Positions 47,675-49,269 of a DNA stretch of 64,000 bases are shown piece by piece. This stretch comes from Pedobacter sp. BMA (GTDB lineage Bacteria; Bacteroidota; Bacteroidia; Sphingobacteriales; Sphingobacteriaceae): contig NZ_LECU01000004.1 in the NCBI RefSeq assembly GCF_001027745.1, positions 248,001 through 312,000 on the forward strand, given 5' to 3'. Below the pieces are notes generated by a model, which did not search any database, had not been told where the DNA came from, and saw only the letters and a program-made list of their open reading frames with translations. The position numbers and the translations under genes are program-made. Positions within the stretch are counted from its first letter, which is position 1. Every line of letters begins with the position of its first letter.

Positions 47675-47702
47675 TTTGAAAAAAAATGAGCCTGCGTATA
47701 AT
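47675..47702 (+). promoter_or_regulatory. candidate promoter of the first hairpin element
   Basis: TTTG at 47675-47678 and TATAAT at 47697-47702, with an 18-base spacer, precede the conserved block that starts at 47709. This would place the RNA 5' end almost exactly at that block. No gene on the plus strand lies nearby. Confidence 0.45.
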
Positions 47703-47708
47703 AAATCT

Positions 47709-47790
47709 GGTTTTTAGCGTTTATGAATATGAGAGCGTTAATTTAGATGACGGGGATGCTGCCAAAAGGCGGAATCCCCGTTTCTTTTTT
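47709..47790 (+). ncRNA. candidate small RNA or mini-gene with terminator hairpin, copy 1
   Basis: A conserved block with two AGCGTT repeats is followed by the stem CGGGGAT (47751-47757) and ATCCCCG (47774-47780), with an inner GCC/GGC pair, and then TTTCTTTTTT. A 7-codon frame runs from 47723 to 47746 (MNMRALI). The stem lies between two minus-strand genes, so it ends no known plus-strand gene. A second copy is at 49182-49261 with nearly identical sequence. Confidence 0.6.
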
Positions 47791-47796
47791 ACATAG

Positions 47797-47831
47797 AAAA
47801 AAGGGATATCTCTTAAAAAATATCCCTTTTT
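47797..47831. terminator. terminator of the LiaF-like gene, bidirectional
   Basis: AAAAAGGGATAT and ATATCCCTTTTT form a long stem with T-tracts on both sides. It lies 25 bases past the minus-strand stop at 47856. Confidence 0.88.
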
Positions 47832-47855
47832 GTATATATGATGGAGGTGCGGATT

Positions 47856-48239
47856 TTATTTATTTAAGTCTGAAAAGTCTGCTGTCTTTTCTGCTTTATA
47901 CTGATCAAAGGCGGTAATCTTCTTCGGCTTCAAGATCAGATATAATCCCACGGCTATCAATGCCACTGCGCCTGTAACTCTTGAGAAATCAAAAAACACC
48001 AAATCTTTGAATGTGAAAATTCCGCCGATGATGGTTAATGCCAGCCAACCGCTTCCCTGAAAGTTTTTGCGGTAGCCTAACCAGATTCCTGCGCCTAACA
48101 TAATCGTATGCCAGCTTAAAATCCAGTGAGGGATCGCTAATCCTGAATTTCTCAATAAGAATACGGAGCCGATGACTACGATTAAAATACCTAAACCTAA
48201 TTGTTTATCTGACTGATTGTTTTTGATGAAATTTTCCAT
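47856..48239 (-). CDS. LiaF-type/DUF5668 transmembrane domain protein
   Basis: A 127-residue protein with four hydrophobic segments (about 15-31, 40-56, 65-80 and 88-107). The text LGLGILIVVIGSVFLLRNSG and ILSWHTIMLGAGIWLGYRK is typical of the LiaI/LiaF-like transmembrane domain (DUF5668). In Firmicutes LiaF-type proteins damp an envelope-stress two-component system, but this stand-alone Bacteroidota form has no such known partner. It is a single gene. The about 170 bases between it and rpiA hold nothing I recognise. Confidence 0.8.
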   Translation of the reverse strand: MENFIKNNQSDKQLGLGILIVVIGSVFLLRNSGLAIPHWILSWHTIMLGAGIWLGYRKNFQGSGWLALTIIGGIFTFKDLVFFDFSRVTGAVALIAVGLYLILKPKKITAFDQYKAEKTADFSDLNK

Positions 48240-48408
48240 GACCGTTTGTTTTTATATTCAAATGTATCACGAAAACAAAGGCTAAAGAATGGTTCTTCCC
48301 TGAGTAACTTTATTTTATCGGTGAGTGAATTGATTTCATCGGTAAAATATCTCCAGAATGAAATGACCGGTCAAAATCCCGGTGAAAGATTCAGAGATTC
48401 AGATGCTA

Positions 48409-49098
48409 TCATTCAAAAATAATGATGTCGTTACCCTGGCTCATGATTACTTTAGACGTAATCCCAACGAACAGTCCGCTCGTTAGCACACCATTAATCT
48501 GGTTTAAAGAAAAATTTAACTCGCCAGGGTTTTCAATCAATCCAAAGTCTGCATCAATAATATAATTTCCATTATCGGTAATGTATTGTTTTGATGCTGC
48601 TTTTCTTAAAACACCTTTTCCGCCAAGTTTTGAAATTTCATTGTAAACGTATTGATAAGCGAGCGGGATCACTTCCACTGGTACGGTAAATGCGCCTAAT
48701 TTTTTCACTTTCTTGGAAGCATCAGTAACGATGATGGTGTTTTTGCTGAGGGTAGCCATAATCTTTTCCCGAAACAAAGCTCCTCCTCCACCTTTTATCA
48801 GATCTAGAGATTCTGTGAACTCGTCTGCCCCGTCGATACTAATGTCAATTGAACTTAAGCTTCCCGGATCGAGAACTTCAATCCCGAATGACTTTGCCAA
48901 CTGTTCTGTGCGGACCGAACTGGCTACGGCTTTAATTTTTAGACCTTCCCTTACCTTTTTTCCGAGTTGCTCAATTGCAATGGTAGCGGTAGACCCGGTG
49001 CCCAGGCCAACAATATCGCCATCATTAACGAATTTTACCGCAGCGAGTGCGGCAGCTAATTTTTCAGCATTTTGAAGGGTTAGATCTATTGAAGCCAT
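48409..49098 (-). CDS. rpiA: ribose-5-phosphate isomerase A
   Basis: A 229-residue protein of normal RpiA length. It has the phosphate-binding GLGTGSTA at 31-38, DGADEFTESL, and KGGGGALFREKI, the segment with the catalytic glutamate. It interconverts ribose 5-phosphate and ribulose 5-phosphate in the non-oxidative pentose phosphate pathway, in the cytoplasm. It is a single gene on the minus strand, and the second hairpin element lies upstream of it on the opposite strand. Confidence 0.96.
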   Translation of the reverse strand: MASIDLTLQNAEKLAAALAAVKFVNDGDIVGLGTGSTATIAIEQLGKKVREGLKIKAVASSVRTEQLAKSFGIEVLDPGSLSSIDISIDGADEFTESLDLIKGGGGALFREKIMATLSKNTIIVTDASKKVKKLGAFTVPVEVIPLAYQYVYNEISKLGGKGVLRKAASKQYITDNGNYIIDADFGLIENPGELNFSLNQINGVLTSGLFVGITSKVIMSQGNDIIIFE

Positions 49099-49181
49099 AA
49101 AGTAAAATTAAAGCTAAAATAAGTGAAGAGCGAATGATCATCAGAAAAAAAGAAAAAAAATAACCAGCAGCACAATAATTA

Positions 49182-49261
49182 GGTTTTACAGCGTTTATGT
49201 TTATGAGAGCGTTAATTTAGATGATGGGGATTCTGCACTAGTGGAATCCCCATTTCTTTTT
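49182..49261 (+). ncRNA. candidate small RNA or mini-gene with terminator hairpin, copy 2
   Basis: The conserved block and the stem are as in copy 1, but the outer C-G pair is T-A here (T49225 with A49252), and the stem TGGGGATTC/GAATCCCCA is a perfect nine base pairs. TTTCTTTTTA follows. The 7-codon frame is at 49197-49220 (MFMRALI). The element ends nine bases before the minus-strand TonB-receptor stop at 49270. No clear -33 box is seen upstream, unlike copy 1. Confidence 0.6.
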
Positions 49262-49269
49262 AAGGTCGA

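Follow-up and report, generated by a model that had tools for sequence, protein, structure and literature searches.

The two small elements that flank rpiA in the window (the whole 64,000-nt stretch of DNA analysed, C4:248001–312000 of the 5.04-Mb genome G000 of Pedobacter sp. BMA) are two of about fifteen copies, in that genome, of a small-RNA gene family of Pedobacter and its relatives that is apparently undescribed. As judged from sequence, the family has a constant design, an 18-nt 5′ core (GAGAGCGUUAAUUUAGAU) followed directly by a covarying terminator hairpin. We put a probability of about 0.7 on the reading that the copies are independent genes for trans-acting sRNAs of about 60 nt, driven by several promoters, similar to the FopS RNAs of Bacteroides thetaiotaomicron and exploited by phages.

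Both window copies lie on the + strand at the positions given in the initial annotation, and a 34-nt pattern taken from their shared block had two matches in the window and none in 100 shuffles. The promoter-like boxes of copy 1 span 47697–47724 and comprise TATAATAAAT (about −34 to −25) and CGTTTAT (−13 to −7), which places the copy in class I below. Its constant 18-nt core, GAGAGCGTTAATTTAGAT, sits at 47731–47748, and the terminator hairpin with T-run, the end of the predicted RNA of about 60 nt, at 47749–47790. In copy 2 the boxes (ACAATAAT and CGTTTAT) are located at 49172–49198, the core at 49205–49222 and the hairpin with T-run at 49223–49262. Our covariance model R2 (see below) matched copy 1 at G000:C4:295731–295790, equivalent to 47731–47790 of the window, and copy 2 at G000:C4:297205–297262. 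A promoter ending ahead of the conserved block had been proposed; the CGTTTAT box is in fact inside the block, at 47718–47724 and 49192–49198. The reported exchange of the outer stem pair, C–G in one copy for T–A in the other, was reproduced. All flanking gene-like ORFs are indeed on the − strand and encode an alpha/beta hydrolase, a LiaF-TM protein, RpiA and a TonB-dependent receptor; the LiaF-TM domain protein (47856–48239, −) and ribose 5-phosphate isomerase A (rpiA; 48409–49098, −) lie between the copies.

Few-mismatch searches collected 198 distinct elements, a subset of those existing. The exact 18-mer is present in 187 and the remaining 11 are one base off, the maximum allowed. A GC-rich stem followed by a T-run, as in intrinsic terminators, comes after the core; all 198 pass a permissive stem-plus-T-run test (run with no control set), weakly in L041, L086 and L111. 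Five elements (L027, L041, L059, L086 and L111) were removed by hand for a weak or odd hairpin or as likely chance matches, leaving 193; L086 was later recognised as a prophage copy. One further copy with an N upstream was excluded from the promoter count (n = 192). A pyrimidine (C or T) occupies −1 in 187 of the 193 copies, and conservation falls at both edges of the core, where the flanking positions are mostly free of search selection.

RNAalifold found zero base pairs on a first alignment of 49 sequences, and R1, the covariance model made first, contained none either, the alignment having blurred the stems. R1 was replaced by R2, built from 24 sequences in the same register, copy 2 among them. 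Here both-sided changes are observed in 13 of 14 stem pairs. The pairing cells of this alignment are filled in 91.6%, vs 66.8% when shuffled and 41–52% when slid, a comparison that is not a blind test since the 24 sequences were chosen for having a stem. The predicted unpaired probability of core positions 1–14 is 0.88–0.96 in the 193 host copies and 0.61–0.96, thus less open, in 31 phage copies. Host positions 15–17 are predicted to be only 0.21–0.45 unpaired, perhaps through modelled pairing with the T-run. Comparison with Rfam 15, suggested by the initial annotation, gave no match that reached the gathering score at the element in the window, in 13 host-family loci or in 7 viral loci. The sole match over the 13 host loci at E ≤ 1 was L20-leader at the L292 element (E 0.1; 28.6 bits vs a gathering score of 58.7), and only two tRNAs in the 7 viral loci were above the gathering threshold. 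The genus-wide copies, the covariation, the fixed spacing of the promoter-like boxes and the lack of a gathering-score Rfam match lend good support to the early suggestion of a possible new small RNA.

The notion of only two copies did not survive searches of the whole genome and of Sphingobacteriaceae, which located paralogs throughout the genus and also in sister genera. In the window's own genome R2 gave 16 matches. Fifteen are full-length and score at least 41 bits, and the other is partial, with 24.8 bits; in two of the 15 (C4:17307 and C5:165638) just the beginning of the core is kept. The core itself, at up to one mismatch, occurs at 12 sites there (reversed control 0). A loose 24-nt pattern at up to three mismatches matched in 143 of 145 genus genomes, with no reversed-control match in any of them. 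At up to one mismatch the 18-mer has 3–15 copies per genome in all 25 genus genomes sampled, across which its reversed control matched once, in G054. Of three named records that contain the core, two are from Pedobacter nyackensis.

At family level R2 matches 117 of 151 genomes at E ≤ 0.01, hairpin-only matches included. Twenty-seven sister-genus elements came from 26 re-examined family genomes and one more is L288; these 28, across nine sister genera, keep the design, and 23 have the exact 18-mer, with slight deviations in L303, L306, L308, L311 and L320. Among the 26 genomes a clear core is absent in G539 (genus g3) and G528 (genus g2), and the g2 and g3 matches of R2 appear hairpin-only in both loci inspected (L316 and L317). 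A 17-mer, GAGAGCGTNAATTTAGA, matched 5 of 392 phylum genomes, every one within the family. At one mismatch, five of 295 genomes sampled from the class matched, and the sole one from outside the family was G160, whose match looks like chance given a poor hairpin and a reversed control that matched four genomes. The R2 matches beyond the family score 22.9–29.9 bits and are mostly hairpin-only; the few that span the model may be chance or distant relatives. Among these is a terminator from another family of the class (L336; G285, about 1501–1557), which starts GAGAGCG and scores 27 bits. Querying plasmids with copy 1 gave no match. The best-ranked literature on Pedobacter sRNAs, multicopy sRNAs and phage-encoded sRNAs, mostly outside subscription journals, does not describe the family, and the core string is absent from the similarly composed literature that was searched for it.

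Promoter-like boxes occur at fixed distances ahead of the core. In 93 of 192 copies CGT begins at −15 to −13 (at most 16 in other windows), and in 112 [CT]AATA begins at −33 to −31 (at most 10 elsewhere); an AAC-type −35 pattern gives a weak peak at −33 to −31, in 31 of 192 copies vs at most 15 elsewhere. The 192 copies divide into class I (CGT-type, 133), class II (TAnnTTTG, 21), class III (14) and 24 that belong to none of the three. Class III consists of a 5′ hairpin with loop GGTGAGAG. We note that the class III loop sequence GGUGAGAG repeats part of the start of the core, in host and phage copies alike (L042, L054, L056, L158 and L386). The TAnnTTTG box ends 3–5 nt ahead of the core in 22 of the 198 elements, which for class II would put the start at the first G of the core or one base off; the fixed distances of the boxes suggest the core's first G as the start of transcription more generally. 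The 28 rows from sister genera, representing 26 distinct elements, show an AAC/ACC-like box ahead of G-T-A at −12 to −10, with C preceding G-T-A only in a minority. In Flavobacterium psychrophilum, one study reads a CGT −10 box (SM6) as ECF-type and describes a housekeeping TAnnTTTG box at −12 to −5 (PMC9723704). By that analogy the CGT-type promoter of most Pedobacter copies looks like an ECF-sigma promoter, and our use of the ECF label is borrowed from that reading. The pattern CAATA-N14/15-CGTNTAT had 9 matches, one a family copy, vs 11 for the control; thus no regulon was found.

A copy adjoins rpiA in 18 other genus genomes and flanks it on both sides in at least eight, counts that give no rate since the loci were sampled because they hold copies. 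The initial annotation regarded the element as a possible mobile unit. In support, the copies are scattered and a prophage contains one of them; the window pair itself sits at the conserved rpiA locus, and its synteny around rpiA makes a transposon reading of that pair less likely. Mobile elements may carry some Pedobacter copies, as certain neighbours, named by eye, suggest: copies are seen just after a frame resembling a tyrosine-integrase C-terminus or an ORF6N-like gene near tRNA-like sequence (L005:1–200 and L006:430–1215). In the 28 sister-genus rows the nearest upstream co-directional gene encodes a predicted lipoprotein of about 460 aa, with no Pfam match, in 18 and ComF in 8; counted by the 26 distinct elements the numbers are 17 and 7, the same core having been read twice in two locus pairs. 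The copy at C8:2662 in the window's genome has a relative of this lipoprotein upstream and a convergent SHMT gene downstream and is, on these grounds, probably the founder copy. Mechanical ORF calling places an ORF of at least 60 aa over 25 of 193 copies. Where no ORF overlaps and both neighbours are known, a co-directional gene precedes 104 of 166 copies but not the other 62.

Among IMG/VR contigs, 31 also contain the exact 18-mer, and none contains it reversed. All 31 score with R2 (30–58 bits, part of which comes from the core alone), and a hairpin follows the core in each, weakly in L359 and L367. A 17-nt pattern added ten contigs, of which L390, L394, L395 and L398 have the design and six, judged by eye, do not. 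By a loose tblastx rule the 35 contigs form clusters of 14, 6, 3 and 3 plus nine singletons, a count of groups that is possibly too high since some of the stretches compared are short. Three contigs are microvirus-like, at 4.5–5.6 kb; L364, L371 and L383 make up one cluster, and for the gene starts flanking the L364 copy the matches are to a major head protein and to a replication initiator. Of the other viral-contig gene starts checked, those taken from L361 and L376 had a head protease and a portal protein as their matches, and two more had no match. L377 is identical to the genus genome G137 over 2643 bp, an identity that links one phage with a Pedobacter host; the hosts of the remaining contigs are putative. 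A co-directional ORF starts within 100 nt in 10 of the 31 contigs, and a leader role is possible there. In the INPHARED phages, two short queries gave weak partial matches only (E ≥ 0.2) and the L377 stretch gave no match.

From these features we infer transcription, its start and sigma type, action in trans by base pairing and a protein partner, as follows. Each copy would be an independent gene whose RNA, of about 55–65 nt, starts at or beside the first G of the core and stops at the hairpin. Most copies would use the CGT-type, ECF-like −10 box and others the housekeeping TAnnTTTG box. The constant and mostly unpaired 5′ end, GAGAGCGUUAAUUU, would be the functional part and act in trans, most likely by pairing with short sites in several mRNAs and possibly with the help of an RRM-type RNA-binding protein; one RRM_1 protein match is present in the window's genome. 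With several promoters and one seed, different signals could drive one regulator. An ancestral single gene would have multiplied in Pedobacter, and the phage copies would share its 5′ end.

The closest known systems are FopS, a family of paralogous sRNAs, and GibS, both of B. thetaiotaomicron, together with RbpB; FopS is reported in Bacteroidaceae (PMC11697453, PMC7366714). FopS represses SusC mRNAs, and one phage copy was reported (PMC11697453). FopS and the Pedobacter family are both multicopy (14 there, 15 here), both join a constant 5′ region to a variable part and terminator, and both combine a phage copy with an RRM protein in the genome; multiple short paralogs with a constant 5′ end and terminator, as in FopS, are what we observe. 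The FopS bands are about 65 and 70 nt, the predicted Pedobacter RNAs about 55–65 nt. The likeness is one of design and copy number. The promoters are housekeeping in FopS and here TAnnTTTG in 21 of 192 copies vs CGT-type in 133. The number of phage copies differs, one reported for FopS and many here. The targets also appear to differ: FopS acts on SusC, whereas the Pedobacter family has no excess pairing at SusC start regions. Of 56 susC genes found, 30 had their start regions tested, and none pairs below −12 kcal/mol (average of 60 shuffled seeds, 1.8); FopS-like SusC targeting was rejected accordingly.

General start-region targeting fared no better. The scan covered 377 and then 708 genes, about 17% of the genome; the 708 start regions contain 10 sites below −15 kcal/mol vs 4.6 ± 3.6 for 40 shuffled seeds, and signal-peptide genes are not enriched (22 in the top 60 vs 26.6 ± 4.4). 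With no clear excess and no target class emerging, this candidate was set aside. In view of the failed SusC prediction and the want of another target class, the most likely reading, by analogy, is that the family resembles FopS in its form of action, with different targets or with action via a protein. The search for exact 11-nt complements of the core gave 16 matches in the genome, 14 of them family copies and the other two, the only ones outside the family, coding sites (reversed control 0). One of the latter (L205:1501–1511; C7:357383) lies in signal-peptide-like codons of a large protein; it could be a target or chance.

The absence of a target class is also what would be expected if the 18-nt 5′ end were a protein-binding handle, with the RNAs titrating or activating an RNA-binding protein (e.g. 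the RRM protein) that phages hijack. The 5′ end is nearly unchanged across ten genera and many viral groups, beyond the need of a multi-target seed, and the genome has its one RRM_1 match. Yet the RRM link is only by analogy with RbpB, and known titrating RNAs carry many sites each, whereas each RNA has one site here; we regard this explanation as rather unlikely. The phage copies might instead reflect conflict, the host RNAs belonging to a defence or toxin system, or serving as its antidote, and the phage version silencing that system. That the exact 18-mer is kept in 31 viral contigs, three of them microvirus-like and with little room in their 4.5–5.6 kb, would fit. The founder locus, however, lies between the lipoprotein/ComF genes and SHMT/hybrid kinase with no toxin or defence gene seen among the neighbours, and the RNA is near-universal in the genus, as most defence systems are not, making such a module improbable.

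Two further readings deny the element a regulatory RNA of its own. It might be a terminator-linked repeat (a 3′UTR or stability element, or a DNA repeat) that is not itself transcribed. Where a co-directional gene precedes, 55 of 105 copies sit 41–60 nt from it, a spacing at which the hairpin can end that gene too. Against this, most copies have promoter-like boxes at a fixed distance, and the upstream gene is on the opposite strand in both window copies and in 62 of the 166 copies that no ORF overlaps; there is little likelihood that the repeat reading is correct. The initial annotation had also noted a 7-codon ORF, M(N/F)MRALI, as a possible mini-gene. The frame, ATGAGAGCGTTAATTTAG, is open in both window copies, and an ATG, TTG or GTG is available in 111 of 193 copies. 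ATG precedes GAGAGCG in just 59, however, with TTG or GTG in a further 52 and no start codon in 82; both window ATGs occur together in 19. All the start codons are upstream of the inferred transcription start, so that the frame reads the −10 region and the presumed 5′ end of the RNA, and the window has no downstream gene for a leader peptide to serve. The mini-ORF was rejected, and a translated mini-gene or leader peptide is very improbable.

We return to the preferred reading, that of independent trans-acting sRNA genes. RybB and MicA of enterics are Sigma-E-dependent sRNAs, single copy and Hfq-bound; the Pedobacter RNAs would resemble them in an envelope-type sigma promoter and a 5′-end seed and differ in copy number, and no outer-membrane target emerged in Pedobacter. 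Rfp18 of F. psychrophilum is likewise a conserved Bacteroidota sRNA, predicted to pair via its third stem-loop, unlike the 5′ core here (PMC9723704), and it is not known to be multicopy. The Pedo-repair motif (RF01715) is likewise an RNA motif of Pedobacter (PMC2864571); it is absent among the Rfam matches to the 13 loci at E ≤ 1.

More tentatively, and at clearly less than even odds, the family may form an RNA hub specific to the Sphingobacteriaceae lineage, in which a near-invariant 5′ end, produced by as many as about 18 host genes (the count of model matches in a single genome) with several promoters, is recognised by a central host factor, making a circuit that unrelated phages, down to microviruses of about 5 kb, enter or block by independently carrying the same 18-nt end. 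That a 5-kb phage spares 55 bases suggests the RNA matters in infection. To our knowledge Bacteroidota sRNAs outside Bacteroides and Flavobacterium have been little studied. The present family is defined, genus-wide and testable, with possible stress-sigma input and phage genes apparently copying it, and the single 18-mer makes a simple probe for sRNA control in the phylum.

Some phage copies are closely associated with tRNAs or with each other. A tRNA ends on the base immediately before the core in L375:2802–2893, and in L373:913–1080 the copy lies shortly ahead of a tRNA. In L378:2436–2515 two cores are 62 nt apart with a hairpin-like stretch before each, an arrangement that may point to processing of the RNAs out of a longer transcript.
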